Below, in pieces: positions 13,320 to 47,989 of a stretch of 47,989 nt of DNA (its first letter is position 1; each line of letters begins with the position of its first letter). A program made the translations under genes and the position numbers. Origin of the DNA: Bacteroidota bacterium (lineage in GTDB: Bacteria > Bacteroidota > Ignavibacteria > Ignavibacteriales > Ignavibacteriaceae); contig JAKBMG010000002.1 of NCBI GenBank assembly GCA_021831685.1, positions 1 through 47,989 on the forward strand, given 5' to 3'. Below the pieces are notes generated by a model. That model ran no database searches, was not told where the DNA came from, and saw only the letters and a program-made list of their open reading frames with translations.

Positions 13320-13341
13320 TTCCTTCTCTGTTTGTTGAAAA

Positions 13342-28283: not shown

Positions 28284-28459
28284 ATTCTGAATGCACTCTG
28301 AATGCACTCTGAATACACTCTGAATACACTCTGAATACACTCTGAATACACTCTGAATACACTCTGAATCCACTCTGAATCCACTCTGAATCCACTCTGA
28401 ATCCACTCTGAATCCACTCTGAATGCACTCTGAATCCACTCTGAATGCACTCTGAATCC
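28284..28459. repeat. Sixteen-unit 11-bp tandem array, ACTCTGAATNC
   Basis: Sixteen contiguous units of ACTCTGAATNC (the first reads ATTCTGAATGC), followed by a decayed seventeenth (ACTTCTAATGG). Only position 10 varies; from left to right it reads G,G, then five A, then five C, then G,C,G,C. Blocks of identical variants point to expansion by slippage. The minus strand has no stop codon in any frame because the unit contains none, so three apparent 71-75 residue minus-strand frames here are artefacts. Confidence 0.95.
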
Positions 28460-28610
28460 ACTTCTAATGGCCTTATCTTGTGCATAGCTCACACTTAACC
28501 TCTTTCTTTCCCATAATCAAGCAATAGAAATTTTACCCTTTTGATTTGAAGTTAAGACTTTTTTATTTAACTAACTCATCTTACGCAAAGGGTTATTATT
28601 ACATAATGAG

Positions 28611-28644
28611 AAACCTCCGAGGTTTTCCTAAACCTCGGAGGTTT
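28611..28644. repeat. Double palindrome, AAACCTCCGAGGTTT
   Basis: AAACCTCCGAGGTTT (28611-28625) and AAACCTCGGAGGTTT (28630-28644) are inverse copies separated by TCCT, and each arm is itself nearly palindromic. Lying between divergent genes it is not a terminator and fits a dispersed palindromic element. Confidence 0.75.
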
Positions 28645-28757
28645 GCACTTCACTTCCTTTATATTTGAAATTGTCTGCGTAACATGAGTAACTAAATAGA
28701 TTTTGTTCAAAACATTCAACCATTTATTTTGAAACAACAATTTATTATTAATTTTTC

Positions 28758-32377: not shown

Positions 32378-33348
32378 TAAATATCTTTATAGAATGTATC
32401 TCTAAAAATTCCCCGAGCCCCAAAATTTTCTTTAAACCTTGCAAGTCCCCAATTCGGGTCCATGTTAACAGTAAAAATTCCAAAATCTAAGAACTTGAAT
32501 CCTTCGTCTTTATATCGTTTCATTATTTCATAAAAAAGCAAATTCACCGCCCGGTACTCCTGATATTCTTCATCATGACTAATATAAAACGCCAGGACAA
32601 CTTTTGGATTAGCAGAGAAATTGCAAACACCGGCAATTAGTTTTTCTCCCTTAAATGCACCCCATAATCTTATCTTTGTCGGAAAGAGTTTTTTAAGTTT
32701 AAGGAGTTCTTCGAGCGAATGCGTAGGATTAACATTGTGCCGCATCTTCAAATTCAATTTTAAGATTTCATAATATTCTTCAAACCGGTCGCACTCAACA
32801 ATTTCAATTCCCTGCTTAATTGATTTCTTTACGGCTGTGCGGGCTTCGGCGCGATAGGTTGAGAGAAGCTCATCGTGTTCCACATCAAGCTGAACTACGC
32901 TTGAAACATCGCGCTTCAAATAACTAAACTCATTTTTCACAAGGGCGAAATCGATATAATTAGAGTATTTTGACTGATAAATCATTGGAGGAGGAGTTAA
33001 CTGAATTCTCTCGCACTTCAATTCCTTTGCATAATCAACGACAGATTCAACTAAATCAAACGCTTCACGAAAATTAAGATTGCTTTTATAAACAAATCCG
33101 CCATAGGAGGCTCCGGAATGAGATATGAGAATTCTCTTTCCTTCGCGCTCAACTACGGCTGCGGAGATAATTGCAAACATTTGACCATTCTTCTTAAAAA
33201 CCAAGGAAGCGTCCTTAAACCTCCCTTTTGGATGATAAGAAAGGAAAAGTCTCTTATGAAACATGGTTCCATTATCGGATGAATCGACGAAATTATCCCA
33301 TTCGCTATCCGATAAATCAATTTTATTTAATGGAAAATATTCAAGCAT
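32377..33348 (-). CDS. FemAB/GNAT-like acyltransferase
   Basis: The 323-residue protein has the two-lobed Acetyltransf_6/FemAB pattern: an N-terminal half with SGASYGGFVYKSNL and a C-terminal half with LIAGVCNFSANPKVVLAFYISHDEEY and NLLFYEIMKRYKDEGFKFLDFGIFT. Such enzymes attach amino acids or acyl groups to peptidoglycan or surface glycans. It heads a minus-strand operon with a glycosyltransferase and a flippase. The group transferred is not known. Confidence 0.78.
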   Translation of the reverse strand: MLEYFPLNKIDLSDSEWDNFVDSSDNGTMFHKRLFLSYHPKGRFKDASLVFKKNGQMFAIISAAVVEREGKRILISHSGASYGGFVYKSNLNFREAFDLVESVVDYAKELKCERIQLTPPPMIYQSKYSNYIDFALVKNEFSYLKRDVSSVVQLDVEHDELLSTYRAEARTAVKKSIKQGIEIVECDRFEEYYEILKLNLKMRHNVNPTHSLEELLKLKKLFPTKIRLWGAFKGEKLIAGVCNFSANPKVVLAFYISHDEEYQEYRAVNLLFYEIMKRYKDEGFKFLDFGIFTVNMDPNWGLARFKENFGARGIFRDTFYKDI

Positions 33349-33553
33349 AAATTTCTCAGAAGTTTTTAATAATAAAAAATATATAGCCTTAGTATAAATT
33401 CAAAATATACTAACAATAAGATATCCGGAGTCTAACTGTAAAAATAAACGATTTTTCTCTTAATGATTTGTTCATTTTCAATTTACGATTTAGTAATACT
33501 AAAATAATATCTTTTCGGCAAATAAAAATTTAATTATGAACTTTGGCTAACAA

Positions 33554-34513
33554 ATGAGAATTGCGCACATTTCAGATCTTCACTTTACGACATTCTTTAA
33601 GAAATCGAATCTTGGTAGTATTAATTATATGTTAGAATATGCTCTTAAACTTAAAGCCGACCATATAGTTATCACGGGCGATTTAACGGACAACGCCGAT
33701 AAGAATGATTTTTTAATTTTAAGAGATTTATTTGAAAACCTGGGGATACTTAGCTCTGAAAAGTTATCCTTAGTCATCGGTAATCACGATATATTCGGAG
33801 GCGTCCAAACTGCCGAAGATATTTTTTCTTTCCCGGAAAAATGCAGGTCAGTTAATTTTAATGAAAAAGTACAAGATTTTTATTCCTACTTTAGCGAAAC
33901 TTTTGACAACTGCGTTTATTTTTCGGAAGATACAATATTCCCTTTTGCTAAAATTCTTGACGGTGTATTAATAGCAGGGATGAACTCTATAGCTGAATAT
34001 TCGAAAGCCAAAAATATTTTTGCATCAAACGGAGCAGTAAGTATTGAACAATTTGACGCAACTTTAAAGATTCTTGAGAACTTTAACAAAGATGTTCATT
34101 CAAAAATAGTTTTGATTCATCATCACTTCAGCAAGATTAAGTCAAAGAACAGCGGTTCATTCGGGGGATTCTGGCAAAATATTGAGAGGCAAACAATGAA
34201 ATTGAGAAAGAAAAAAAGACTTCTAAACTTGTTCAATCAATATGACATCAATTTAGTGCTGCACGGACATTATCATGAGACAAAAGAATACCATCGCAAT
34301 AGAATAAGATTCTTAAATGCAGGAGGAAGTTTTAAAAATCAATATCAAAATGAATTTTTTATAAATTTTATTGATGTAGAACCTTCTGGAATAAAAATTG
34401 AGACTCACAATTTGCATTCTCCAAAAGATGGTTTTGAAATGGGCAGCATATTATCCGGTGGCAATAATTCGCTTGAAAGGAAATTCGCATTACCCGAAAT
34501 TATTGCCAATTAA
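33554..34513 (+). CDS. Calcineurin-like metallophosphoesterase
   Basis: The 319-residue protein has all five metal motifs of the family: HISDLHF (D8, H10), GDLTDN (about 41), GNHD (about 74-77), LIHHHF (about 194) and GHYHE (about 235). It should be a di-metal phosphoesterase; candidate substrates include UDP-diacylglucosamine (LpxH-like) and cyclic nucleotides, and nothing in the sequence decides. It is followed by a glycosyltransferase gene in the same direction. Confidence 0.88.
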   Translation: MRIAHISDLHFTTFFKKSNLGSINYMLEYALKLKADHIVITGDLTDNADKNDFLILRDLFENLGILSSEKLSLVIGNHDIFGGVQTAEDIFSFPEKCRSVNFNEKVQDFYSYFSETFDNCVYFSEDTIFPFAKILDGVLIAGMNSIAEYSKAKNIFASNGAVSIEQFDATLKILENFNKDVHSKIVLIHHHFSKIKSKNSGSFGGFWQNIERQTMKLRKKKRLLNLFNQYDINLVLHGHYHETKEYHRNRIRFLNAGGSFKNQYQNEFFINFIDVEPSGIKIETHNLHSPKDGFEMGSILSGGNNSLERKFALPEIIAN

Positions 34514-34589
34514 ACATAATACCGGTTCAAAACATTTAAGAGCAAAAGAATCAAATCTTCAATTGAAAATGGAATAGTTAGGAGCAGTT

Positions 34590-35780
34590 ATGTCACAATC
34601 GCTTAAGGAAAATATTAGTTCTAAATTTAAGGTAGCTTATTTTGCCGGCTCTATGCGCCCCGGGATTGACGGTGTTACAAGAGTACTATACAAGTTAATT
34701 GAAGAATTGAATGTCCGGAATATCGAAAATATTTTTGTCTCCCCTATTATTCCGTCAATAGAAGAGCGGCCTACTTTGATGTTTAAAGTCCCTTCAGTTA
34801 CAGTTCCTTTCTATAAAGAATACCGTCTTCCCTATTTCGGACAAAGGATATTTGAAAATAAATTACTTGAGTTTAAACCGGATATTATTCATATAAATAG
34901 CCCTTGTCCTTTAGGTTATGCAGCATTAAGATTTGGACTGAAGCATAGAATTCCGGTTGTGGCAACTTACCATACACACTTCGCAAGTTATGCAAAATAC
35001 TATAATGTTAGACCACTTGAATCTTTCAGCTGGAATTATTTTCGTAGCATCTACAATCGATGCGAAACAGTATACGTCCCTTCGATACCAATATTAGATG
35101 AACTTCGCAATCACAGTTTGACAACAACCGAGTTTCTTCCACATGGTGTGGACACGCAAATTTTCAATCCACGATATAAGTCATCCAAATGGAAAAATAA
35201 TCTAAATATTGAAGGAAAAACCGCTTTACTTTTTGCGGGTCGACTTGTTTGGGAAAAAGATTTAAAGACCTTTGTGGAAGTTTATAATATCCTTTCGGCA
35301 AAAAGAAAAGACATAGCTTTTGTATTAGCCGGTGACGGACCAATACGCGAAGACTTAGAGAAATCAATGCCCAAAGCAATATTTCTCGGCTATCAAACCG
35401 GAAGTGAACTTGCCGCTACGTATTCTTCCTCCGATATTTTTGTTTTCCCATCGACTACTGAAACTTTTGGAAACGTTGTAGTCGAGGCAATGGCTTCAGG
35501 CTTACCTCCAATCTGCGTTAGAGAAGGAGGCGCATACGGAATCGTTAAAGACAATATAACGGGTTTAATTGCAGAACCAAGAAATGCTGCAGATATTTCA
35601 AATAAAATTGAAATGCTTCTTAATCAGCCCGGATTAAGAGATCAGATATCAAGTCAGGCATTTCAGTATGCTCAGACACAATCATGGGAAAATGTTTTTG
35701 AAAGTCTTTTCAAAAGCTACGAAGAAGTAATTCGCAATTATACAATTAAGAAATTATACAGAGAGAAAAAGGTTGCTTAA
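34590..35780 (+). CDS. Glycosyltransferase family 4 (mannosyltransferase-like)
   Basis: The 396-residue GT-B enzyme starts YFAGSMRPGIDGVTRVLYKL and has the donor-binding block PSTTETFGNVVVEAMASGLP (about 286-305) with the EX7E motif, and LLFAGRLVWEKDLKTF in front. It resembles MgtA/PimB-type glycolipid mannosyl- or glucosyltransferases. An AGGAG ribosome-binding site precedes ATG 34590. It may work with the phosphoesterase upstream in glycolipid assembly. Confidence 0.88.
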   Translation: MSQSLKENISSKFKVAYFAGSMRPGIDGVTRVLYKLIEELNVRNIENIFVSPIIPSIEERPTLMFKVPSVTVPFYKEYRLPYFGQRIFENKLLEFKPDIIHINSPCPLGYAALRFGLKHRIPVVATYHTHFASYAKYYNVRPLESFSWNYFRSIYNRCETVYVPSIPILDELRNHSLTTTEFLPHGVDTQIFNPRYKSSKWKNNLNIEGKTALLFAGRLVWEKDLKTFVEVYNILSAKRKDIAFVLAGDGPIREDLEKSMPKAIFLGYQTGSELAATYSSSDIFVFPSTTETFGNVVVEAMASGLPPICVREGGAYGIVKDNITGLIAEPRNAADISNKIEMLLNQPGLRDQISSQAFQYAQTQSWENVFESLFKSYEEVIRNYTIKKLYREKKVA

Positions 35781-35789
35781 TCAAAAAAA

Positions 35790-37118: not shown

Positions 37119-37828
37119 GGGAAAATTAGCGGCTTTACATTTCTCGTTTTACAATACATGCCAAGTCCTTTAATAAATCAGACACAGGAAGAGTTTATGC
37201 CAATTTTGGCAGACTTTTTTCTGAAATAATTGGATAAGAATTAAAGGCTTGTTTTAGGCTTGTCATAGGCTTGGTAGAGGCCAGGAGGAAATAGGCAAAA
37301 ACAGAAAGAAAAGGATCTTAGGTATGACAAAATTGGCAGACAAAGAATTTTCAAGGGTAAGTCGGCTGAGAAATATTTTATTAGCGCCTAACGCGGCAGG
37401 CCGCAATGTATTATGTTTGATGGAATATGGAATATGTAAAACAAATTTGAAATATCTTGACACAAAAAACAAAAACTTAATTGGCAACATTATAGATAAC
37501 CTCATTTTTATTCGATTACCTGTATTATGGCACAACGACCCTAAGTGAAATAGCTTAGGGTTATATTAATTTTGGCGCAATGCAGCTATTCGGCCAAAGA
37601 TTTAAAATATTGACAATAAGAGAAAATTAATTTATCTTAATAATACTGAAGGAAAAAAGGATGGGTATGCGTTACTCTCTGAACTAATTATAGAGCGGAG
37701 TAGAATTGCAATACATACAAAGACTACTTGGGCCTGCAAGGGGCAAAACCACGGAGACTTACCTCATGAGATATTATTTTGTTTAATTCTGGAAAAGAGA
37801 AAAAATGAGACATCATGAACAAATAATT

Positions 37829-37871
37829 TTATGGCGTAAACACAACTAATTTGGAAGTAATTACGCCATAA
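37829..37871. repeat. 11-bp perfect inverted repeat
   Basis: TTATGGCGTAA (37829-37839) and TTACGCCATAA (37861-37871) are exact inverse copies with a 21-base loop. The right arm can alternatively pair with ATGGCGT at 37891-37897, forming part of the attC-like dyad below. Confidence 0.8.
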
Positions 37872-37915
37872 CTTGTCCCGATTTTTCGAGATGGCGTGAA
37901 TACAGTAGTTAGTTG
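37843..37915 (+). repeat. attC-like dyad 1 (upstream of the Ycf48-like gene)
   Basis: CAACTAA (37843-37849) pairs with TTAGTTG (37909-37915), and ACGCCAT (37863-37869) pairs with ATGGCGT (37891-37897), with spacers of 13 and 11 bases. This two-box symmetry around a small loop is what integron attC sites show. The core bases GTT/AAC are present, but the full GTTRRRY consensus is not met, so the call is tentative. Confidence 0.4.
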
Positions 37916-37923
37916 CAATTGCC
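37908..37923. repeat. Left copy of a 16-bp inverted repeat bracketing the Ycf48-like gene
   Basis: GTTAGTTGCAATTGCC matches the inverse of GGCAACTGCAACTAAC at 39239-39254 in 15 of 16 positions. The left copy is 31 bases before ATG 37955 and the right copy begins at the base after the stop codon. This is the geometry expected when a cassette's first bases are complementary to the start of its own attC. Confidence 0.75.
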
Positions 37924-37954
37924 GCTTGATAGCTTCAAGAAAGGAGGAACTGGT

Positions 37955-39238
37955 ATGAAGACTTTGTTCCGAATTTTGTTAATGACGATTTTCACATTGG
38001 CGAATGTGAACACGTTGAACGCTCAATGGATTTTGCAGAACAGCGGTGTCAATGCAACGCTCTCGGATGTTGTCATGCTTGATACGGTAACCGCAATCGC
38101 CGTGGGAAGAAATGGTTCGATTCTTGAAACGACAAATGCCGGAGAATCGTGGCTCGACGTTTCTCTGCCCCTCTCGTATGGCGGACAGTGGAACGCCATC
38201 TCATTTTTCGATTCAGTCAATGGAGTTATCGTTGGAGATAACGGCACCGTTTTCACAACACCCAACAGAGGCAAGAGCTGGCTATGGCATTATATTCCGG
38301 GAGGACAAAAATGTTTGTCTGCTCTTCATGTCGGGCCCAATAGTGTTTACGTCGGCGCCGACTCCGGGTGGGTGTACAACACGTCCGATACCGGCAGAAC
38401 GTGGACTGCTGAAAAAATCAGTACGTGGCCAATCCGCTCGCTTTTTGTGTATCACGGTCCCACTTTTATTGGCGTCTCAAAATACGCACTTACGCCTTAC
38501 TCACTTTGCACACAGTATGTGATTCCACCCCCTTCATGGAATGAAAAAATCTTACCGAACTTTCAGGGCTTGGGATCGGCAGCATTTGATGCAGAGTTTT
38601 GTAACGGCGGGGGTGCGGGATTTATCGTGGGAGTTCAGGGAGACTTGCGCTCTGCACCGACAATCTTGCGAAAGTCGATGTTCGACACTGTGTGGCATGA
38701 AGTTTCCACGGGCATCTTGAGAGACGGTACATTATTCAACGTCTCGACTCCATCCGCCAATGTGATCTATGTATGTGGGGGTAACGGCATGATTTACAAA
38801 TCCTCAAATGGCGGAGATACATGGCTTGACCAAACTGTGCCGACAGCCCGTAATGTGAACGCGATTTTCTTCTACGATGAGAAACACGGCTTTGCTGTCG
38901 GTGATTCCGGATTGATACTCTATACGTCAAACGGTGGTCTTACAGGCGTTGGAGATTGGGAAGGTTTTCCTCCGACGAATTTTATGCTTGAGCAGAACTA
39001 TCCCAACCCGTTTAATCCATCGACCAACATCTCTTTTAACCTGCCATCAAGATCATTCGTGTCACTCAAAGTATTTGATGTTCTTGGCAAAGAGGTTGCA
39101 AGTATTGTGTCAGAAATATTATCCGCAGGGAATTACTCTCGACAATGGAACGCGGCAGGAATGCCAAGCGGCGTTTATTTTTATCGCTTACAAGCTGGGA
39201 GTTACATTGAAACAAAGAAACTCGTTTTGCTCAGATAG
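37955..39238 (+). CDS. T9SS-exported Ycf48-like beta-propeller protein
   Basis: The 427-residue protein has a signal peptide (about 1-23, ending in LNAQ), propeller blades of the Ycf48/photosystem II assembly-factor type (repeats ending in TTNAGESW, TPNRGKSW, TSDTGRTW, SSNGGDTW) and a C-terminal T9SS type A sorting domain (NYPNPFNPSTNISF to the end). It should be delivered to the cell surface; the ligand is unknown. I choose ATG 37955, which has AAGGAGG nine bases upstream, over the TTG at 37913. It is moderately GC-richer than the housekeeping genes and lies between two attC-like dyads. Confidence 0.88.
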   Translation: MKTLFRILLMTIFTLANVNTLNAQWILQNSGVNATLSDVVMLDTVTAIAVGRNGSILETTNAGESWLDVSLPLSYGGQWNAISFFDSVNGVIVGDNGTVFTTPNRGKSWLWHYIPGGQKCLSALHVGPNSVYVGADSGWVYNTSDTGRTWTAEKISTWPIRSLFVYHGPTFIGVSKYALTPYSLCTQYVIPPPSWNEKILPNFQGLGSAAFDAEFCNGGGAGFIVGVQGDLRSAPTILRKSMFDTVWHEVSTGILRDGTLFNVSTPSANVIYVCGGNGMIYKSSNGGDTWLDQTVPTARNVNAIFFYDEKHGFAVGDSGLILYTSNGGLTGVGDWEGFPPTNFMLEQNYPNPFNPSTNISFNLPSRSFVSLKVFDVLGKEVASIVSEILSAGNYSRQWNAAGMPSGVYFYRLQAGSYIETKKLVLLR

Positions 39239-39254
39239 GGCAACTGCAACTAAC
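39239..39254. repeat. Right copy of the 16-bp inverted repeat
   Basis: GGCAACTGCAACTAAC starts at the base after the stop of the Ycf48-like gene and is the inverse (15/16) of 37908-37923. Its TAAC end is also the left core of attC-like dyad 2. Confidence 0.75.
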
Positions 39255-39388
39255 ACGACGCTTCCGTTATTGATACGGATTATAGTGCTTTCTCAATGGA
39301 TTTTGGTGCGATGTGGTAAGCGCAGTTAAGTTAAAGGGTATTTTCCTTAGCACCGAAAATCACTGTGTGGTGCGGCGAGACGTTATGC
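39248..39388 (+). repeat. attC-like dyad 2 (after the Ycf48-like gene)
   Basis: Symmetry runs inward from both ends: TAAC (39251-39254) against GTTA (39382-39385), CGACGC (39256-39261) against GCGGCGA (39372-39378), and GATTATAGTGCT (39278-39289) against AGCACCGAAAATC (39349-39361). The arms are spaced 23 and 20 bases from the core boxes. Total length is about 140 bases, within the range of long attC sites such as VCRs. The right core GTTATGC is repeated in inverse form (GCATAAC) at 42228-42234, after the fifth gene downstream. Confidence 0.45.
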
Positions 39389-39419
39389 TCTATCCGTAGG
39401 ACAATATGGAGACAAGATT

Positions 39420-39959
39420 ATGAAGATAACACATTTCATCACAGTTGCAGCCTTTTATCTATTTACTGTTTGGCTGCCATTTATTCAAACTGAGGTTTGG
39501 GCTCAAACAACACAAAATACAAAACCCCTATTGGAAATCACTAATCGAACCGGCATTAAAGTGGTCGCTCAAGTTAATTATTCAAGCACCATGCCGAACG
39601 GTATAAGCAAACAGGTGATGGCAGTTAAGAACCTATACGATCAATATTCTAACCTTGGTATGAAGCCTGGAAAAGACTATGAGATCATTATGGTTTTTAG
39701 GGCTGATGGGGCGCAGTTCCTGTTGACAGACGAAGCATATGATTTAAAAGTGAAGCAGCCGCATCCCAAAGGCAATCCAAACAAGGCAATGATTGAAGCT
39801 TTGTACAAAGGCGGGATAAAAATGTACGAGTGTCATATCGCCATGAAATTGAAAGGCTATAAACCTGAAGATATCTTTCCTTTCAGCCGGGTTGTGGTTT
39901 CCGGTATTGGTGCTGTGGTTGATTTCGAAAAGTCCGGCTACCTATCAATGACTCCGTGA
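39420..39959 (+). CDS. Exported DsrE-family protein
   Basis: The 179-residue product has a signal peptide (about 1-29, ending in VWAQ) and one DsrE/DsrF-like domain with its only cysteine at C138 (in KMYECHIAMK), at the position of the family's sulfur-carrying cysteine. DsrE proteins relay persulfide sulfur; a periplasmic form is unusual and here precedes a TSUP transporter and lies near a thiosulfate dehydrogenase. A weakly similar protein is encoded at 42379. A GGAGAC ribosome-binding site precedes the ATG. Confidence 0.8.
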   Translation: MKITHFITVAAFYLFTVWLPFIQTEVWAQTTQNTKPLLEITNRTGIKVVAQVNYSSTMPNGISKQVMAVKNLYDQYSNLGMKPGKDYEIIMVFRADGAQFLLTDEAYDLKVKQPHPKGNPNKAMIEALYKGGIKMYECHIAMKLKGYKPEDIFPFSRVVVSGIGAVVDFEKSGYLSMTP

Positions 39960-39982
39960 TAAATATAACAAAGGAGGTAAGA

Positions 39983-40813
39983 ATGTCGTTTGAATTACTA
40001 TTCCTCATCTCAGTCGTTGCCGGTTTTGTTGGCGCAATGAGCGGGATGGGTGGCGGGGTCGTCCTGATTCCCGTGCTCACTTTATTTGGCATGGACATCA
40101 AGCACGCAATCGCCATCAGTATCGTCTCGGTGATTGCCACCTCAAGTGGTGCCGCCTCGGCTTACGTGCGCGATCACATTACCAATCTCAAGGTCGGAAT
40201 GTTTCTGGAGATGTTTACAATTATAGGTGCTCTCGTCGGTGCAGCGATTACTGTGGTCTCGGCAGGGCGCCCGCTCTTTTTTGTTTTTGGGCTCGTGCTG
40301 CTGGGGTCCTGGGCGACGCTCTTCTTGCAGCGGCACGAGGGTTGGACACCCGTCGCTCATCAAGACAAGTTTTCCAAATGGCTGCAATTGGAAGGGAGTT
40401 ACTACGATCAAGCCGCGGGGCAAACCATCGAGTACCGTGGAGCGCGCGCGTATTTTGGTGGACCGTTGATGTTCGGCGCAGGATTGATCGCAGGATTGTT
40501 AGGCATCGGGGCAGGTGCGCTTAAGGTGTTGATCCATGACCTGGTGATGGGGCTGCCGCCGAAGGTGTCTACCACGACAAGCAACCTGATTATCGGCGTC
40601 ACCGCGCTTGCAGGCACGAGTGTTTATCTCGCTGCAGGCTTGATTGATCCGGGACTCGCTGCACCCGTGATACTTGGCATCCTAGTAGGCGCTTTTATTG
40701 GTACGCGGCTTCTCGTCCGGCTCACCAATCAGAAGGTGCGCCATTTCTTCTTGGTGGTGTTAGCGATATTAGGCATCGAGATGATTCTGCGCGGGATCGG
40801 GGTCATACAATGA
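39983..40813 (+). CDS. TSUP (TauE/SafE-type) sulfur-anion transporter
   Basis: The 276-residue membrane protein has the duplicated TSUP pattern: GAMSGMGGGVVLIPVLTLFG near the start, then LLGIGAGALKVLIHDLVMGL and STTTSNLIIGVTA in the second half, with about eight spans. The family exports sulfite, sulfoacetate or other sulfur anions. I use ATG 39983 with AAAGGAGG upstream, not the earlier in-frame codon. The GC content is clearly higher than in the flanking Ignavibacteria-type genes, suggesting recent transfer together with the next two genes. Confidence 0.88.
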   Translation: MSFELLFLISVVAGFVGAMSGMGGGVVLIPVLTLFGMDIKHAIAISIVSVIATSSGAASAYVRDHITNLKVGMFLEMFTIIGALVGAAITVVSAGRPLFFVFGLVLLGSWATLFLQRHEGWTPVAHQDKFSKWLQLEGSYYDQAAGQTIEYRGARAYFGGPLMFGAGLIAGLLGIGAGALKVLIHDLVMGLPPKVSTTTSNLIIGVTALAGTSVYLAAGLIDPGLAAPVILGILVGAFIGTRLLVRLTNQKVRHFFLVVLAILGIEMILRGIGVIQ

Positions 40814-41226
40814 TAGCACTTGAAGGAACAACAGCAAGACATGAACCCGCAGGCGCGAAGACGACCGGCTTTGATATGGAAGCTTTGGTCGGATTTATTT
40901 TATTAATCGGCGTGCTTCTGAGCATGGCGCTGATTGCCATCGGCGTCGTTTGGCATTGGTTGGCGACGGGTCAGATAGGACTTCAATATTCAATGTCAGG
41001 CATGAATTTGTTTGGCTTCGTGCTCGCGGATATGCGGCAAATATTCTCGGGTGCTTTTCGACCACGCCTATTTGTCAACCTCGGGATTGCCGTGCTGATG
41101 CTGACGCCATACGTGCGTGTGTTTGCCTCGATGCTCTTCTTTGCCTTCGTGGAGCGCAATCCCAAGTACACAATTTTCACTGCGTTTGTTTTCAGTGTTC
41201 TGACTTATAGCCTCTTCTTGCGTTAG
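40810..41226 (+). CDS. DUF1634-family membrane protein
   Basis: The 138-residue protein has three hydrophobic spans (about 26-50, 84-106 and 114-136) and the DUF1634 pattern, a family regularly found next to TSUP transporters. Its ATG overlaps the TSUP stop (ATGA), so the two are co-translated and probably form a complex. The function is undefined. It shares the high GC content of its neighbours. Confidence 0.75.
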   Translation: MIALEGTTARHEPAGAKTTGFDMEALVGFILLIGVLLSMALIAIGVVWHWLATGQIGLQYSMSGMNLFGFVLADMRQIFSGAFRPRLFVNLGIAVLMLTPYVRVFASMLFFAFVERNPKYTIFTAFVFSVLTYSLFLR

Positions 41227-41351
41227 ACCGGTGAATCACAAAACTTGGTGAGACCTATGGATATGGCAACCGCACGCAAGACGGCGTGCCGGCACAAGAG
41301 ATACGATAGTAGAAATTTAGTATTAACTTTAAATTTGAAAGGAGACTGACT

Positions 41352-41780
41352 ATGAACCGTATTACACTATTTTTTAGTGGAGCGATCATGGTGCTTTTTG
41401 CTTCGATGCTCTATTCCGCTGCCACCGAGCCACAACTGGAAAAGACAATCCAGAAAGGTAAGTATCTCTTCATACACGGCACCTTCGGCGGTAATGGTAT
41501 GACCTGCGAAACCTGTCATACCGCGGCAGGCGCTGGTCCCGGTAAGACGCCAGGCGGCATGAAGTTCACGAGCCTCGCCAATGCCGCAACGATCTTTCCC
41601 CGCTTCAACCCTAAGAACAATAAGGTTATTACTTTGGAAGACCAGATCAGGAATTGCACCGTTGGTGCGCTTCAGGGCAAGCCGCCCGCTTACGGCAGCA
41701 CCGAGATGAACGCCTTGGTCAGTTACATTACCTCGCTTTCCCAGGGTAAGCCAATGAACATGGGCGGAAAGCCAAAGTGA
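41352..41780 (+). CDS. Monohaem c-type cytochrome
   Basis: The 142-residue protein has a signal peptide (about 1-24) and one haem c site, C52-E-T-C55-H56, followed by a GAGPGKTPGGMKF stretch. Met residues in the second half could give the distal ligand. The block TLEDQIRNCTVGALQGKPP with Cys at about 98 resembles the N-terminal domain of TsdA, so it may be a partner electron carrier for a sulfur enzyme. AGGAG precedes ATG 41352. Its GC content matches the TSUP/DUF1634 genes upstream. Confidence 0.8.
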   Translation: MNRITLFFSGAIMVLFASMLYSAATEPQLEKTIQKGKYLFIHGTFGGNGMTCETCHTAAGAGPGKTPGGMKFTSLANAATIFPRFNPKNNKVITLEDQIRNCTVGALQGKPPAYGSTEMNALVSYITSLSQGKPMNMGGKPK

Positions 41781-41789
41781 CATAGTTCC

Positions 41790-41870
41790 CAGCTTCCTCC
41801 TTCGGATTTTTCCGTCTAAAGTCTATCGTCTGAAGGAGGATTTGATGTCATAACAAATGGTTATGCATAA
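41790..41870 (+). pseudogene. Fragment of the diheme-subunit gene
   Basis: Twenty-five codons here align without a gap to bases 46614-46688 of the diheme membrane-cytochrome gene. The fragment reads QLPPSDFSV, a TAA stop, then SLSSEGGFDVITNGYA; the intact gene reads QPPPPDFTVYNLSPERAFDVITNGYP. The last 18 bases are identical (GTCATAACAAATGGTTAT). It is a broken second copy of the haem domain end, directly after the cytochrome gene. Confidence 0.85.
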
Positions 41871-41897
41871 TAAAATAATAATCAAAGGAGAAAAGAA

Positions 41898-42215
41898 ATG
41901 TCAAAGCTATTAATATCTCTTGGGATTGGAATAATTGCTGGAATAATCGATGTAATACCGATGATAATTCAAAAAATTGACAAATATGCGATTATTTCTG
42001 CATTTGTTCATTGGATTGTCTTGGGTTTTATTATTTTTTATATTCAAATTCCAGTATCATCTTGGCTTAAAGGTATCATTATTGCAGAAGTGACAGCATT
42101 ACCCATTGTAATACTTGTATTAAAATCTGAACCAAAAAGTGTAATCCCAATACTGGTAATGTCTGCCATCCTTGGTGCTATTGTTGGTGTAACAAGAGCC
42201 AAATTTGCTGCCTAA
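41898..42215 (+). CDS. Small polytopic membrane protein
   Basis: The 105-residue protein has about four hydrophobic segments (roughly 4-22, 31-52, 58-75 and 81-100) and few charged residues. I recognise no family. AAAGGAG lies upstream of ATG 41898. It has the low GC content of the host genes, unlike the three genes before it, and ends 12 bases before attC-like dyad 3. Confidence 0.65.
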   Translation: MSKLLISLGIGIIAGIIDVIPMIIQKIDKYAIISAFVHWIVLGFIIFYIQIPVSSWLKGIIIAEVTALPIVILVLKSEPKSVIPILVMSAILGAIVGVTRAKFAA

Positions 42216-42227
42216 TATTGTTGCAGT

Positions 42228-42296
42228 GCATAACGACTCAATGCACCTGACCGTGCTTCGCACGGCAAAGATTACCAATGAGAAAAGAAGTTGATT
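42228..42296 (+). repeat. attC-like dyad 3
   Basis: GCATAAC (42228-42234), then CTCAATG (42237-42243), then the perfect hairpin CCGTGC-TTC-GCACGG, then CAATGAG (42277-42283), then GTTGATT (42290-42296). The start GCATAACGACTC...TGCACCTGACCG is strongly reminiscent of attC left halves of environmental cassettes, and GCATAAC is the exact inverse of GTTATGC at the right end of dyad 2. The right half is weak. Confidence 0.45.
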
Positions 42297-42378
42297 TGAA
42301 TTTGAATAGAACCATCACCAACTAAATAAAATGAAAATTGCAACTAAAAATAATTTCACGTTTGGAAGGAGAACTGCC

Positions 42379-42924
42379 ATGAAAAGCTTAATCAAAATGT
42401 TATTTGTCATTTTGTTACTAATTGTTTGTTCAAATAATTCTTATGCACAAAAGTGGGAATATCCGGTTATTAAAGGATATGGTCCTGTTCATCCATTACC
42501 AGATGCAGCAGTACAGCCGGATAAATCTATTGAGTATAAAATTTTATTCGACATTACAATAGCAGCAAATAGTAAAGATAAGGTAAACCCGGGATTAGAC
42601 CATATAGCCCGCCTAATCAATGTATTTGCTTCCGCAGGTATGATGCCAAACAAGATGAAACTTGTGGCAGTTATTCATGGAAACTCTGCCCCAATTGTTT
42701 TGAAAAATGATATTTTCAAATCGAAATATGGAGTAGATAATCCTAATATCAAATTATTAACCGATTTAAAGAAAAACGGAGTGGTATTATATGTATGCGG
42801 TCAGGCCCTGGCTGATAACAACTTCAAACACGAGTGGGTAAATCCTAATATTTCTATTGCGCTTTCTGCTCTTACCGTTGTTCCCACTTATCAATTAATG
42901 GGATACGCATTGATGGCATGGTAA
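42379..42924 (+). CDS. Exported DsrE-family protein, second copy
   Basis: The 181-residue product has a signal peptide (about 1-24) and a DsrE-like domain with a single mature cysteine, C140 (in LYVCGQAL). It resembles the protein at 39420 in size, export and cysteine position but is not a close copy. I choose ATG 42379 with GGAAGGAG upstream; the frame extends 16 codons further without a better signal. It lies just before the TsdA-like gene, so a role in accepting or delivering sulfane sulfur in the periplasm is plausible. Confidence 0.8.
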   Translation: MKSLIKMLFVILLLIVCSNNSYAQKWEYPVIKGYGPVHPLPDAAVQPDKSIEYKILFDITIAANSKDKVNPGLDHIARLINVFASAGMMPNKMKLVAVIHGNSAPIVLKNDIFKSKYGVDNPNIKLLTDLKKNGVVLYVCGQALADNNFKHEWVNPNISIALSALTVVPTYQLMGYALMAW

Positions 42925-42999
42925 AATCATAAAACTGTTAAAAAAAATATTCTTAAGAAGGGATTATATGGTTTTTTATCCAATGAGAAAGGAGATGCA

Positions 43000-43845
43000 A
43001 TGAAAAAGTCAGAGATAAAGTTTGGTGTAGTAGTAGTAATTACATTCGCTGTCATTGGAGCTGCTGTCTCTCTTATCTTCGGCAGATTTATCGATTTCGG
43101 CAGCAGCAAGACAATCGAGACATCTGCCCAAAAGACAAAACCAATAGGCGGTACTGTTTCTTTTAGTCCCCCTTTGCTTCAGGATGCGCCGGCAGAGATA
43201 AAAGACGCAGTTATGCTCGGTTACAACATCATGATGAACACACAGAAATATGCAGCCGGATATGTAGGTAACAAGCTCAACTGTACAAACTGCCACTTCA
43301 ACGGTGGAATTACAGAAGGCGGCAGGAATGGGGGACTTTCACTCGTTGGAGTAGCTGCAACATATCCAAGATACAGAAAGGGACAAAACTATTCCGAGGA
43401 TATCGTGACACGGACTAACGATTGTTTTGAAAGGAGCATGAATGGAAAACCTTTGCCTTCTTACAGCAAGGAAATGACAGCCATTGTTACCTACTATCAA
43501 TGGATATCCAATGGGCTGCCTATATATGCGAATATTCCATGGCTGGGCATAGAGTATATTAAAAGTACTCATACACCTAACCCAGCAAACGGAAAACAGA
43601 TTTTTGCTCAAAATTGCGCTGTGTGTCATGGCAATAACGGACAGGGAACTCAGGTTGTACCACCTCTCTGGGGCAACGATTCATTTAATGACGGCGCCGG
43701 TATGGATAAACTGAAGGATATTGCAGCCTTTACCCTGAATAATATGCCGATGACCAATCCCAAACTTACTGATGAAGACGCTCTTGACGTGGCAGCATTC
43801 ATTATAAATCAACCACGCCCTCACTTTGCAGCAAAGAAGAAATAG
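43000..43845 (+). CDS. tsdA: TsdA-like thiosulfate dehydrogenase (diheme cytochrome c)
   Basis: The 281-residue protein has an uncleaved or signal N-terminal span (about 8-28) and two haem c sites, C95-T-N-C98-H99 and C206-A-V-C209-H210. Between them TRTNDCFERSMNGKPL carries C142, matching the Cys that ligates the active-site haem in TsdA. The second domain ends with NNMPMTNPKLTDED, giving the Met ligand. TsdA oxidises two thiosulfate to tetrathionate, or runs in reverse. AGGAG precedes ATG 43000, and the bd-like subunit gene follows after 9 bases. Confidence 0.85.
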   Translation: MKKSEIKFGVVVVITFAVIGAAVSLIFGRFIDFGSSKTIETSAQKTKPIGGTVSFSPPLLQDAPAEIKDAVMLGYNIMMNTQKYAAGYVGNKLNCTNCHFNGGITEGGRNGGLSLVGVAATYPRYRKGQNYSEDIVTRTNDCFERSMNGKPLPSYSKEMTAIVTYYQWISNGLPIYANIPWLGIEYIKSTHTPNPANGKQIFAQNCAVCHGNNGQGTQVVPPLWGNDSFNDGAGMDKLKDIAAFTLNNMPMTNPKLTDEDALDVAAFIINQPRPHFAAKKK

Positions 43846-43854
43846 GAGGAGTTT

Positions 43855-45219
43855 ATGCAATTTCCCATTTTTCAGGTGCCATATTTAGGCAACGGCATGA
43901 CAATCGCATTGGATGCAGTGCTGCATGTGATTATAAGCCACGGGCTGGCTATCGGCGCAATAACACTCATCGTAATAAGTGAATACTTTGGCTTCAGGAA
44001 GTCTTCCAAAGACTGGGAAAATTTTGCAAAGAATTTTCTGAAGTTTACCATTATAGTCATTACAGGAGTCGGGGCAGTAACCGGAGTTGGAATATGGCTT
44101 ATTACCAGCGCTCTGGCACCAAATGGCATAGGATCTATGTTGCGAATATTTTTCTGGCCGTGGTTTATTGAATGGATAGTCTTCACGTTAGAGGTAATCG
44201 TCCTTCTTATTTATTACTTTACCTGGGATAAGTGGACAGGCGAAAGAAAAAAACAGCATATATATCTTGGCGTAAGCTATATTATTTTTTCTCTTTCCTC
44301 CGCCTTTTTGATTACCGGTATACTTGGCTTCATGCTTACGCCCGATGGCTGGCCATGGAACAAAAGTTTCCTGTCAGCATTTTTCAATCCGAGTTTTCTT
44401 CCTCAATTGTTATTAAGGGCAAGCATGGCTTTTGCGCTCGGCGCCGTGTTCTCTATGGCATTTCTCATTATTACACGCAGGGAAAATGTTTTTCGCAAAG
44501 ATGCCCTTCGCTTTTTCGGGAAGGTTTCCTTTATTTCATTTTCTGCCGCGGTTATATTCACATGGTGGTATTTTTCCGTAGTTCCATCGGCATTCAAAAC
44601 ACACATGGCCTTCTCCGTCCTCACTCCCAGGTTTTCTCAGCAACCAGAAATCTTCTATGCAATGAATGCCATAGGTACATTTATCTTGTTCCTGTTTGCC
44701 ATGTTTGCACTAAAGGGTTCCGTTTCTTTTTCAAGGATTTTTATCGTCCCGGTACTCTTACTCTGCATGGGTTTTGTGACGGAATTTGAAAGGGTACGGG
44801 AGTTTATTAGGGGACCATATCTGATGCCTGGTTACATGTACGCCAATCAAGTATTACTAGGTGAAAGTCTTTTTTTAGAAAAAGACAGTATGTTTAAAAA
44901 TGCTTATTGGTACAACATGATTACCGATAAACCTGATGTCATCAATCAAGGCGCATATCTTTTTGCCCAAAATTGTTCCGCATGCCATACAATAGGCGGG
45001 ATTAATGATATTCAAGATGGGGTTAAAGGAAGAAGTGAAGATGGCATTTTTGTCATTCTCCGGCATACGCATGAAATGGTACCCTTTATGCCTCCTTTTT
45101 CAGGAACGGAACAGGAACGGCGGATTATGGCACGCTTTCTATATCAACTGGCAAACGGGAAAATTACCATTGAGGCTCCTTCTCGTTTTGCCCCTGTAAA
45201 GGAGGGTGAAAGAAAATGA
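43855..45219 (+). CDS. Cytochrome bd-type (CydA-superfamily) subunit with C-terminal haem c
   Basis: The 454-residue protein has about nine membrane spans of the CydA superfamily: an N-terminal region with H24 and H29, E106 and E113 (in FFWPWFIEWIVFTLE), and the block FVTEFERVREFIRGPY with E310, R313 and R316. A c-type domain follows with C374-S-A-C377-H378. It has no quinol Q-loop of the canonical CydA type. Bd-family members with a C-terminal haem c (the OR-C groups) are known from sequence surveys but are poorly characterised. Its last base pairs overlap the next gene (ATGA). Confidence 0.82.
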   Translation: MQFPIFQVPYLGNGMTIALDAVLHVIISHGLAIGAITLIVISEYFGFRKSSKDWENFAKNFLKFTIIVITGVGAVTGVGIWLITSALAPNGIGSMLRIFFWPWFIEWIVFTLEVIVLLIYYFTWDKWTGERKKQHIYLGVSYIIFSLSSAFLITGILGFMLTPDGWPWNKSFLSAFFNPSFLPQLLLRASMAFALGAVFSMAFLIITRRENVFRKDALRFFGKVSFISFSAAVIFTWWYFSVVPSAFKTHMAFSVLTPRFSQQPEIFYAMNAIGTFILFLFAMFALKGSVSFSRIFIVPVLLLCMGFVTEFERVREFIRGPYLMPGYMYANQVLLGESLFLEKDSMFKNAYWYNMITDKPDVINQGAYLFAQNCSACHTIGGINDIQDGVKGRSEDGIFVILRHTHEMVPFMPPFSGTEQERRIMARFLYQLANGKITIEAPSRFAPVKEGERK

Positions 45220-46778
45220 ATAGCCTCTTTGACATCCTGCTTAAGAAACCCCTTCCCGATGAGTGGCTCCACGGACTTCTTTTTACCTCTTTTACTCTAC
45301 ATATGGTATTCGTCCTTTTAGCTATAGGGACTGTTGTCCTTTCCGTTTACTATTTTATCGATTCTCAGTGGGGAGGAAAAACAGAGGAGTTGCGATTAGA
45401 TAAGAGGATTTTAAAAACTTTTATGGCGCATAAAAGCCTCGCCATAGTTTTGGGAATCGCACCGTTACTGTTAATCCAGGTTGCTTTTACCGTGCCTTTT
45501 TTTACGGCAGTTAATTTGCTTGCACCTTTTTGGATACTCATTGTTATACTTTTGGTAATTGCATTTCTCTCTTTTGATACTTTAGGACACAAAATAAATG
45601 TTCATCCTTATCTCCATACAATTCTTGGCATTATTGCACTTGTCTCTCTTCTTGCAGTTCCAGCAATATTCGTTGCTGTATTGGTGACGGCAGAGAATCC
45701 TGATAAGTGGATAACAATAATCACTCACGGGTATAAATTAAATGGCTCGCTGGCACACCTTTGGCTGTTCAGATATTTACATGTTCTTGGAGCTGCTCTT
45801 GTGTTCGGCGCAGCATTTCATTATTTCTTCTCAACAAAGGATGAAACAGAAAAGAGATCACTGCTTAAATGGATTGTGGGTGGGATTCTGCTTCAGATTA
45901 TCCTCGGCATAATCCTCTACACCTCTTTATTAGGAAAGCCTGATTTCATCACCAATGTTTTCTTATTTATCGGCGTCATTGGAACCGCTTTATTGTTATG
46001 GGTAATTTATCTCGGTATGGATAAAAAGAGCACTTTAAATATGGGGACAGTACTACCTCTTTTAATGCTCATACTTGTGCCGATGCTTTTAACAAGGCAG
46101 TTTATTCAAGATAAGAATTTTGTGCCCTTTGAAAAACAGTTGCAGGCAAACACTCAAGCTTATCAAAAGGTGATGCAGCCCTATAACCGGGAAGCCCTTA
46201 ACAAATATCAATCCGATATAAATATCGTCTATGATAATGGAGGAACGATCTATTTAAAAAGTTGCGCCTTCTGTCACGGAGAAAAGGCGGATGGTAACGG
46301 CTCAGAAGCAAAAAACCTTGCAATCCTTCCTGAAGACATATCGGCTATCAGAACGACCCGTCGTTATCTTCACAAAATTCTTGCCGGAGGGGTTACCGGC
46401 TCTGCCATGCCTTACTTTACTGTGTTTGACAGGTATAAATTAGATAGCCTAATTAATTATCTTGATAAAAAGTATCATGTGTTAAGCTTACCCGAACCTC
46501 TTCCTGTTAAAATCTCTGATGCAGCATTACAGCAGTCCCGGAAAATTTATGATGAAACATGCTCTCAATGTCATGGAATTGACGGCAGGGGTTCAACGCT
46601 TTCAAAAGGTTTTCAGCCGCCACCTCCGGACTTTACCGTTTACAACCTATCGCCTGAAAGGGCTTTCGACGTCATAACAAATGGTTATCCTGGAACTGTG
46701 ATGTTTCCATTTAGTAACCTGCCGGAAGATGTCCGCTGGGGACTGGTAAAGATTATTAATAATAAAAGAACGCAATAG
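45216..46778 (+). CDS. Polytopic membrane subunit with two C-terminal haem c sites
   Basis: The 520-residue protein has about eight membrane spans (roughly 20-295, with H29, H72 and H188 among candidate haem ligands) and two cytochrome c domains, C350-A-F-C353-H354 and C449-S-Q-C452-H453. It has no clear CydB signature but takes CydB's place after the CydA-like gene and overlaps it by 4 bp, so it is probably the partner subunit. The haem domains would receive electrons on the periplasmic side. Partial copies of its 3' end occur at 41790 and 47425. Confidence 0.8.
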   Translation: MNSLFDILLKKPLPDEWLHGLLFTSFTLHMVFVLLAIGTVVLSVYYFIDSQWGGKTEELRLDKRILKTFMAHKSLAIVLGIAPLLLIQVAFTVPFFTAVNLLAPFWILIVILLVIAFLSFDTLGHKINVHPYLHTILGIIALVSLLAVPAIFVAVLVTAENPDKWITIITHGYKLNGSLAHLWLFRYLHVLGAALVFGAAFHYFFSTKDETEKRSLLKWIVGGILLQIILGIILYTSLLGKPDFITNVFLFIGVIGTALLLWVIYLGMDKKSTLNMGTVLPLLMLILVPMLLTRQFIQDKNFVPFEKQLQANTQAYQKVMQPYNREALNKYQSDINIVYDNGGTIYLKSCAFCHGEKADGNGSEAKNLAILPEDISAIRTTRRYLHKILAGGVTGSAMPYFTVFDRYKLDSLINYLDKKYHVLSLPEPLPVKISDAALQQSRKIYDETCSQCHGIDGRGSTLSKGFQPPPPDFTVYNLSPERAFDVITNGYPGTVMFPFSNLPEDVRWGLVKIINNKRTQ

Positions 46779-46794
46779 CAAACAAAAATTCACT
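46740..46794 (+). repeat. Direct repeat, copy 1 (3' end of the diheme gene and spacer)
   Basis: These 55 bases (codons GLVKIINNKRTQ, stop, and spacer) match 47425-47479 without gaps in 46 of 55 positions. The two copies flank the DedA gene. Confidence 0.9.
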
Positions 46795-46809
46795 TAAAAA
46801 GAGAAGACA

Positions 46810-47424
46810 ATGAATAGCCTGCTTGTCACGGCTCACCCCTACATCGTCCAGTACGGTTACTGCGCGCTTTTCGCCGTGCTGTTCGCCGAGTCGTTTGGAT
46901 TGCCGTTGCCGGGCGAGACGTTCCTGGTCGCCGCGTCGTTCCTCGCCGTACAGGGCCAGCTCAACATCTGGCTCGTGGGTCTGACGGCATGGGCAGCGGC
47001 GGTGCTGGGCGACAACGTTGGCTATGCCATCGGCCGCTTCGGTGGACGCAGGCTGGTGGCCCGCTACGGCGCACGCATAGGTATCAGCGCCGAGCGGCTG
47101 AAAAAGACGAAGCGTTTTTCCGCGCATTACGGTCCGGAAGTTGTCATCATCGCGCGTTTCTTCCCGGTGCTGCGGCAACTCAACGGCATAGTTGCGGGCA
47201 GTACCGGAATGGACTGGAAACGTTTCGTATCCTACAACGCACTAGGCGGGCTCCTTTGGGTTGGCGCATGGAGTTCGGGCGTCTACTATTTCGGTCATCA
47301 AATTGAAGTGTGGCTGCTACGGGTTCATAAGGCAGGATTGTGGCTGGCCAGTGCGCTGGCGCTGACCCTGCTCGTCGTAGCAGCCTACCGGGCAATTTCC
47401 AAACGATTGCACAGCCGACGCTGA
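46810..47424 (+). CDS. DedA-family membrane protein
   Basis: The 204-residue protein has the DedA (VTT) pattern: an N-terminal re-entrant hairpin with LFAESFGLPLPGETFLV, the GDNVGYAIGRFGG block, a conserved ARFFPVLRQLNGIVAG stretch and C-terminal spans. The family acts in polyprenyl-phosphate or phospholipid flipping and membrane homeostasis. The gene is far richer in GC than its neighbours. Its stop is directly followed by the tail of a diheme-type gene, and its start shares ATGAATAGCCT with the start of the diheme gene, so it seems to replace the body of a second diheme copy. Confidence 0.88.
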   Translation: MNSLLVTAHPYIVQYGYCALFAVLFAESFGLPLPGETFLVAASFLAVQGQLNIWLVGLTAWAAAVLGDNVGYAIGRFGGRRLVARYGARIGISAERLKKTKRFSAHYGPEVVIIARFFPVLRQLNGIVAGSTGMDWKRFVSYNALGGLLWVGAWSSGVYYFGHQIEVWLLRVHKAGLWLASALALTLLVVAAYRAISKRLHSRR

Positions 47425-47479
47425 GGCCTGGTAAAAATTATTAATGACAAAAGAATAAAATAACAAACAAAATTTCACT
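47425..47479 (+). repeat. Direct repeat, copy 2 (orphan diheme-gene tail)
   Basis: Directly after the DedA TGA the sequence reads GLVKIINDKRIK and a stop (47425-47463), then the same AT-rich spacer as after the diheme gene. This is the 3' end of a second, otherwise missing, diheme gene; 46 of 55 positions match 46740-46794. Confidence 0.9.
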
Positions 47480-47495
47480 AAATAAGGAGTAAGCT

Positions 47496-47921
47496 ATGAA
47501 AATCAATGAGAACTTTCTATTAACCTCGCTGTTAGTCATACTCATGTGTACAAATATTATGGCACAATCACATACATATAATAAGGTACCGATGAAAGAA
47601 GGCGGACCTTATGACCTTGTATATTATCCTGAAAATCAGCCCGATCCGGCTGACGCGGCATTTTTCCCTCATCAGTTCATCCAGGCTTATGCAAATGCTG
47701 CTCATAATGCGGCATTTGACGTTGTGGACGGGGCGCCTGAATGGATAAAAAAAGGGATAACATGGCAATTTCCTGAAGCTCGCGCCTGGCCATTGAGCGA
47801 GGAGAATGCTTTTAATGTGGAAGTTTTTGGTAACAAAAGCAGTTTGCCCGTTATTACACAATTCTATGGCAATGCCCTGGGAGTATCTCCCGTAGAGGGT
47901 AATGGTACAAGGTTAAGATAA
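47496..47921 (+). CDS. Exported protein of unknown function
   Basis: The 141-residue product has a signal peptide (about 1-23, ending in MAQS) and a mature part of about 117 residues rich in aromatic residues and proline (YDLVYYPENQPDPADAAFFP; WIKKGITWQFPEARAWPL). It has no cysteine in the mature part and no motif I recognise. AAGGAG precedes ATG 47496. It follows the rearranged diheme/DedA segment and may be a periplasmic accessory of the respiratory module. Confidence 0.7.
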   Translation: MKINENFLLTSLLVILMCTNIMAQSHTYNKVPMKEGGPYDLVYYPENQPDPADAAFFPHQFIQAYANAAHNAAFDVVDGAPEWIKKGITWQFPEARAWPLSEENAFNVEVFGNKSSLPVITQFYGNALGVSPVEGNGTRLR

Positions 47922-47989
47922 TAAACACGGATATCTGTTTCCCTTTAAAAATGGATATTTAGTATTTTTTGTTCTCAATGCTCTTGGTT

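Follow-up and report, generated by a model that had tools for sequence, protein, structure and literature searches.

Near one end of a 47,989-nucleotide stretch of contig JAKBMG010000002.1 (positions 1 to 47,989, here called the window) from a Bacteroidota bacterium of the class Ignavibacteria (assembly GCA_021831685.1), three adjacent forward-strand genes encode what we consider, with some reserve, to be probably a dedicated periplasm-facing thiosulfate:O2 oxidoreductase. The first gene (43000..43845, 281 amino acids) specifies a TsdA-type dihaem cytochrome c whose best match among solved structures is TsdA of Allochromatium vinosum. The second (43855..45219, 454 amino acids) encodes a CydA-like (OR-C-like) predicted O2-reductase subunit with a C-terminal haem c, assigned by PF01654, the structure 5doq_A, a structural model and a tree. 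The product of the third (45216..46778, 520 amino acids), called the partner below, is a second CydA paralogue (CydA'-like) with a membrane domain of the bd fold and two C-terminal haem c domains. The intergenic gaps are 9 bases (TsdA/CydA-like) and -4 bases (CydA-like/partner), and the CxxCH motifs of the three proteins add up to five (2+1+2). A preliminary description of this DNA had listed the same three open reading frames, coordinates, gaps and five c-type haem sites, all of which we reproduced. Our proposal is built on gene order, haem motifs, residue conservation, predicted folds and clade-specific linkage, all read from sequence.

The linkage of the three genes, so far noticed in one genome, proved to be conserved. 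Genome contigs were scanned for relatives of the CydA-like protein, and the best 80 of at least 551 were kept as named loci (L numbers). A TsdA gene lies directly upstream in 21 of the 22 named loci with a CydA-like protein at 43% identity or more, and beside it, within the sequenced flank, in none of the 58 loci at 39% identity or less, three of which (L111, L114 and L119) have under 600 bases upstream of the gene. Given this split between close and distant relatives, we do not regard the arrangement as a product of chance. The close set includes loci with a partial TsdA at the contig end (L065 and L118), one with genes broken over two frames (L064) and one that ends inside the CydA-like gene (L076). 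A separately drawn sample, 297 genomes of the Desulfogranum phylum, held a CydA-like relative at E (expectation value) ≤ 1e-30 in 51 genomes, nine of them at 44-64% identity; all nine have an adjacent TsdA, two being already in the first set and seven new. Thirty loci of this sample were examined, and none of the 21 distant ones among them has TsdA beside the CydA-like gene; L191 has almost no upstream sequence, and a weak TsdA-domain match in L177 (27%, E 5e-6, from the end of the CydA-like match in a 618-residue frame) was not counted as TsdA. The other 21 distant genomes were covered by the TsdA search alone, which gave no match at E ≤ 1e-15 in any of the 42 genomes whose relatives are all distant. 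At this threshold TsdA-like genes occur in 13 of the 297 genomes, namely the nine linked ones and four others (two peroxidase fusions, one 284-residue protein and one partial match) that have no CydA-like relative at E ≤ 1e-30. The association gives Fisher p values of 2e-18 for the 80 named loci and 2e-14 for the 297-genome sample, both of which ignore relatedness.

TsdA was likewise not found beside the CydA-like gene in 20 further loci from the host phylum. CydA-like relatives at 25-34% identity occur on four plasmids, and the three of these plasmid loci that were examined have no TsdA beside them. With the host, the 21 named loci and the seven further genomes of the Desulfogranum phylum, linkage amounts to 29 genomes. 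The record titles of the named linked genomes read Nitrospirae (2), Delta- or Proteobacteria, Desulfobacteraceae, Desulfocapsa, Desulfobaccales, Desulfarculaceae, Desulfogranum, Desulfovibrio, Desulfovibrionaceae, Bilophila and Phycisphaerales, plus one 'Methanoperedens' metagenome-assembled genome (MAG) that may be mis-binned. When 22 genomes were searched for TsdA, 20 had a match at E ≤ 1e-10, and in each of these the operon TsdA is the only stand-alone one found.

The preliminary assignment of the first protein to TsdA stands. Against solved structures it matches A. vinosum TsdA best (4wqc, E 7.8e-37), and it begins with a hydrophobic segment that resembles a membrane anchor. The CxxCH sites lie at residues 95-99 and 206-210; the haem-1 ligand is Cys142, the cysteine of the NDCFERS motif, and the haem-2 ligand is Met249. 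Both ligands and both CxxCH sites are present in all 19 aligned operon TsdAs, and the haem-2 methionine is described as strictly conserved in TsdA in the part of PMC5146829 that deals with it. The same source, as far as its relevant passages go, presents CccC (Cj0037) of Campylobacter jejuni as a TsdA relative in which methionine replaces the haem-1 cysteine and which donates electrons to a cb oxidase (PMC5146829). Retention of the haem-1 cysteine in 19 of 19 operon TsdAs rules out a pure electron carrier of the CccC type for the operon protein.

For the CydA-like subunit, PF01654 scored 57.6 bits in a profile search of the genome, above the curated cut-off; hmmscan of the protein alone did not list PF01654 and reported only the cytochrome c domain above its cut-off. 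Residues 18-231 match the solved structure 5doq_A (E 1.8e-16). An AlphaFold model of the protein (mean predicted local distance difference test score, pLDDT, 88.5) superimposes on bd-oxidase chains with Z 26.8-28.8 and root-mean-square deviations (rmsd) of 2.7-3.9 over 306-321 residues, the match to 7ose_A reaching Z 28.8 with rmsd 3.1 over 311 residues, as against Z 16.6-17.6 for chains of alternative complex III and polysulfide reductase.

For individual residues the reference was a canonical CydA that the host itself encodes (contig C110); H24, E106, E113, E316 and R319 of the CydA-like protein align with its H18, E98, E106, E377 and R380. We take the five to be the counterparts of the CydA di-haem site residues H19, E99, E107, E445 and R448. 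The roles of E99, E445, H186 and M393 follow the pertinent sections of PMC6853902. All five residues are unchanged in the 58 aligned sequences (the window plus 57 of 78 usable named relatives), so that the counterparts of the haem b595/d site residues, whose absence would have spoken against an oxidase, are present throughout. The position of the b558 histidine (H186) is occupied by Leu187/Arg188 instead, Arg188 being found in 58 of 58, and alignments including the 58 sequences have no conserved methionine at the M393 position or within a few columns of it. The Q-loop segment, which belongs to the quinol site, is missing when the protein is aligned with host CydA. The C-terminal haem c site (C374-xx-C377-H378, 44974..44988, forward strand) and Met412, the probable distal ligand judging from its invariance, are kept in 58 of 58. 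This pattern, with the di-haem site kept and the b558 histidine and Q-loop lost, is what would be expected of a cytochrome c-fed, OR-C-like reductase, and the subunit indeed looks like one. The earlier suggestion that electrons enter through c haems and not from quinol is supported by the two losses. Relatives without TsdA carry haem c too. Two distant relatives from the host phylum, L051 and L053, have neither the TM1 (first transmembrane helix) histidine nor haem c.

The nature of the third protein had to be corrected. The preliminary description had called it a polytopic partner with two haem c domains; the domains were recovered as two stretches of PF13442, and the membrane part turned out to be a CydA paralogue. 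A partner profile of 80 sequences, chosen by match to the window's partner, a length over 300 residues and a gene close behind, was compared by hhalign with canonical CydA (eight sequences), giving a probability of 94.8% and E 5e-8; against host CydB the probability was 0.3%, the CydB side being a single sequence. The partner model (pLDDT 86.0, predicted template modelling score 0.61) superimposes on CydA chain 7ose_A with Z 25.9 and rmsd 3.2 over 294 residues. In a Foldseek search with the partner, CydB chains are listed among those of CydA, some of them with the higher target-normalised template modelling scores, so that the fold alone is undecisive. CydB as the identity of the third protein is set aside on the hhalign comparison, with its single CydB sequence. 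In the profile alignment, partner His29 falls on the TM1 histidine of CydA, and His189, in the motif R-Y-L-H, falls on the b558 histidine in R-F-L-H. His29 is present in 19 of 19 partners of the TsdA-linked clade and in 60 of 60 others; His189 and Met290 are each present in 19 of 19 and 55 of 60. Residue conservation makes the two subunits look complementary, the CydA-like one keeping the O2 site and the partner keeping the b558-type histidine, and it is possible that the partner binds a b-type haem through His189/Met290. Its first haem c site (C350-xx-C353-H354, with Met398; 46263..46277, forward strand) is shared by 19 of 19 clade partners and by 30-32 of 60 others. The second (C449-xx-C452-H453, with Met496; 46560..46574, forward strand) occurs in all 17 clade partners that extend this far, two being cut by contig ends, and in none of the 60 others.

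Together, these features suggest a model, of which the electron route and direction, O2 as acceptor, the haem types and the physical complex are what we infer. A membrane-anchored TsdA would make tetrathionate from two thiosulfates at the haem with the Cys ligand, and the electrons would move from there to the His/Met haem and on to the partner, with its two haem c domains. They would then reach the haem c domain of the CydA-like subunit, possibly by way of a b-type haem at His189/Met290, and finally the di-haem site (H24, E106, E113, E316, R319), where O2 would be reduced to water with cytoplasmic protons. The route would leave out quinone, since the CydA-like subunit has neither the quinol site nor the b558 histidine found in normal CydA. 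The midpoint potential of the thiosulfate/tetrathionate couple is given as +198 mV in the relevant part of PMC9562282; this is high for feeding menaquinone, which would make entry at the level of cytochrome c sensible. The likely use is respiration at low O2 or removal of O2 by sulfate reducers and other anaerobes in thiosulfate-containing settings. A fuller version of the model, which we put forward tentatively and with slightly more doubt than trust, is a hard-wired, quinone-independent thiosulfate oxidase in which TsdA and a complementary pair of CydA paralogues contribute five haem c in all. One paralogue would hold the O2 site and the other a displaced b558-type haem, and the unit would have spread horizontally among sulfate reducers, Nitrospirota and Bacteroidota-like bacteria.

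In a tree of CydA-like proteins (102 rows, built by a quick method with Shimodaira-Hasegawa-like approximate likelihood ratio support only), the 20 TsdA-linked proteins and the unlinked L070 form one well-supported group of 21 rows (support 100), a placement that supports the idea of the preliminary description, which had called for such a tree. A TsdA tree of 19 operon sequences over 250 residues and 29 of 34 free-standing matches from the host phylum separates the operon TsdAs from the free-standing ones with support 100/100. On this first tree, operon-type TsdA looked as if it were bound exclusively to the oxidase, an idea since weakened by sampling at the level of the class: when the same-class L212-L214 were added they placed as sisters of the operon TsdAs, whose group then had support 85/82.

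Several observations count against the proposed oxidoreductase. L212-L214 have the sister TsdA together with DsrE and without the clade oxidase, so the TsdA lineage is not tied to the oxidase; two of these three genomes hold a distant CydA-like relative at 27-29%. L070, from Bdellovibrionales, encodes the oxidase pair, including the two haem c domains of the partner, but not TsdA, and its genome has no TsdA match at E ≤ 1e-10; the second partner haem c therefore marks the clade and not TsdA itself. A correlation between the pairwise distances of TsdA, the CydA-like protein and the partner (r 0.86-0.94, from 15 sets in which each gene is almost complete) speaks for the proposal, but shared descent alone can produce it. 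Proximity of genes, finally, does not prove a complex, the unit being deduced from the genes. L070 and the sister TsdAs without oxidase, together with the 58 relatives at 39% identity or less that lack a neighbouring TsdA and presumably draw on different cytochrome c donors, would fit a looser coupling, in which a general pool of periplasmic cytochrome c is reduced by TsdA and oxidised by the bd-like pair, and the genes travel together since thiosulfate is the main source of electrons. We regard this as unlikely, if the most serious of the alternatives, because the extra partner haem c found only in the clade and the anchor-like N-terminus of TsdA suggest direct wiring.

The main doubt about the proposed mechanism is the direction of TsdA catalysis. 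In the window TsdA, Asn248 stands where A. vinosum TsdA has Lys208, so that the surroundings of haem 2 (Asn-Met) are like those of C. jejuni TsdA; position 248 is Asn in nine and Phe in ten of the 19 aligned operon TsdAs. Most hosts, moreover, are MAGs of what we take to be anaerobic lineages. Both points, and the b558-type histidine and Met290 kept by the partner, would suit a reverse reaction in which the membrane pair oxidises quinol or another donor and the c haems feed TsdA as a tetrathionate reductase. C. jejuni TsdA is portrayed as mainly a tetrathionate reductase, also in vivo, in the corresponding passages of PMC5146829. A quinol-oxidising anchor, however, would have no need of the O2-site residue set kept in 58 of 58 sequences; the Q-loop is absent, and haem c is also present in relatives without TsdA. 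The retained O2-site residues thus favour thiosulfate oxidation, and reversal seems to us rather improbable.

A third alternative shares thiosulfate as the donor and differs in the acceptor, the bd-like site reducing nitric oxide (NO) or peroxide in vivo as a detoxifying enzyme and not as an oxidase. It draws on genes in which a TsdA domain is joined to a di-haem cytochrome c peroxidase of the MauG type (four CxxCH; Pfam scan of L066, L207, L208 and L211). In L066 one such fusion (11579-13510) follows the operon and DsrE on their downstream side, others are in L207, L208 and L211, and a same-sized four-haem TsdA-like gene is downstream of the operon in L069 (11618-13528). The fusion may be a thiosulfate-fed peroxide reductase. 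It also counts in favour of our main proposal, as an independent case in which TsdA apparently supplies electrons to an enzyme that reduces an oxidant. The residues of the CydA-like subunit nevertheless match O2-reducing CydA, no search aimed at NO-specific features having been made, and we give a detoxifying role very little credence, less than any other alternative.

The surroundings of the operon point to horizontal transfer on a stretch of atypical base composition. The CydA-like gene was not found in any of the 12 other genomes of the host genus, and one of 24 family genomes has a form at 30% identity. Positions 28758-35786 of the contig are syntenic with the same-genus genome G009 at 77%, and the window encodes type IX sorting domains, which fit a host from Bacteroidota, as does a relative in a same-phylum genome that is nearly identical to one titled Flavobacteriaceae. 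Measured per 2 kb, the G+C content goes up beyond about 38 kb, from about 35% to values of 39-50%; beyond 39.24 kb there is no genus match among the matches listed, and 37600-47989 has no match at E ≤ 1e-20 in the four same-genus genomes compared. On the right-hand side, 39969-41236 matches the same-class genome G789 at 87%, and the DsrE and TsdA stretches match the same-class G773, G814 and G817 at 66-70%. Among the operon's relatives, those in Nitrospirae and 'Methanoperedens' MAGs come nearest, with 74-76% for the CydA-like protein. Given the synteny of the left part and the same-class matches at the right end, contamination or a chimeric contig is a less likely source of the operon than a transferred stretch. 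Shine-Dalgarno-like motifs precede 8 of 26 host-side genes versus 7 of 10 genes beyond 39.4 kb, numbers too few to weigh. Besides the operon, the host encodes a CydAB of its own and a haem-copper oxidase subunit. At 28055-28703 the window contains short stretches that are repeated many times across the host genome at 78-98% identity.

Directly upstream of the TsdA gene, a forward-strand gene (42331..42924) encodes a DsrE-like protein with an N-terminal hydrophobic segment (PF02635, E 2.4e-9), probably an accessory; DsrE homologues adjoin the operon in L066 and L069 (51-52% identity) and the sister TsdA in L212-L214 (69-73%). The region 39420-42924 comprises genes for DsrE, TauE, DUF1634, a monohaem SoxA/TsdA-like cytochrome c of uncertain role (41352..41780, forward strand; PF21342, E 1.6e-14), a 105-residue hydrophobic protein and the second DsrE. 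L215, from the same class, has near copies of TauE, DUF1634 and the cytochrome (94, 85 and 77%), and after its SoxA/TsdA-like cytochrome (10807-11430) come stretches in two frames that match the last haem c domain of the window partner at 65-71%. In the loci with sister TsdA, a trio without oxidase is formed by a 313-residue protein, operon-type TsdA and DsrE (L212 7966-10461, L213 3852-6229, L214 7616-9993). The 313-residue protein belongs to a solute-binding family in L214, the only one scanned, and L066 and L069 have a solute-binding protein of that family behind the peroxidase-type gene.

CydA-like genes also occur in other settings. L034 (7466-10126), L038 (8940-11630) and L039 (7543-10221) encode CydA-like proteins of about 890 residues with eight CxxCH and a partner without haem c. 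L037 (7607-10881) has a tandem pair of CydA-like haem c genes; behind them is a partner-like match (27%) that has no clear open reading frame. In L051-L053, CydA-like genes without CxxCH are clustered with a protein of about 540 residues and 11 transmembrane helices and with small cytochromes. The conjugative Agrobacterium plasmid pLN1-183666 (L054) carries a CydA-like haem c gene and a partner, and then a pair resembling a sensor and a response regulator.

As the preliminary description had said, TsdA and haem c-bearing bd-like proteins are each known; the latter belong to a named family, OR-C, reportedly defined by Murali, Gennis and Hemp in 2021, with a predicted cytochrome c donor and a C-terminal haem c. 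The broader interpretation in that description is supported for the linkage, the active-site residues and electron entry through c haems, and needed amending for the identity of the partner and for operon-type TsdA, which is not exclusive to the unit. To our knowledge, no electron donor has been experimentally established for any bd-superfamily branch lacking the quinol site, and an operon that is conserved and points to a particular donor opens one such branch to direct testing. If the proposed oxidoreductase is real, sulfate reducers and other anaerobes could use or remove O2 with thiosulfate and no quinone pool, and the unit would show how the second subunit of the bd family may have gained an electron-transfer arm along with a new donor enzyme. 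In the pertinent parts of the sources, the bd subfamilies are listed as qOR, OR-C and OR-N, with the quinol site in qOR (PMC13189123), and OR-N is held to be likely cytochrome c-oxidising (PMC10839748). The open-licence literature in PubMed Central, which does not include the defining OR-C paper, yielded no report of TsdA linked to a bd-like oxidase, and we know of no description of this fixed linkage, in which the CydA paralogue carries a double haem c.

With the TsdA of A. vinosum and C. jejuni the first protein of the unit shares two haem c, Cys at haem 1 and Met at haem 2, but it has an anchor-like N-terminus and a clade of its own, in which the gene is fixed to an oxidase operon. Like CccC it would be a TsdA-like cytochrome feeding a terminal oxidase, although CccC has Met for the catalytic Cys that is kept here. 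Canonical CydAB (Escherichia coli, Geobacillus thermodenitrificans) has the same fold, by the structural matches of the CydA-like model, and the same di-haem site residues, whereas here the catalytic subunit is without b558 histidine or Q-loop and there is no CydB. CydAA' is said (Murali 2021) to be a bd reductase of two superfamily paralogues; our unit, from its genes, likewise has two co-encoded CydA paralogues, but both carry haem c and the catalytic one has no quinol site. OR-C reportedly has the same CydA core without quinol site, a predicted cytochrome c donor and a C-terminal haem c; what sets the present unit apart is that its operon includes TsdA and that the partner is a CydA paralogue bearing two haem c domains.

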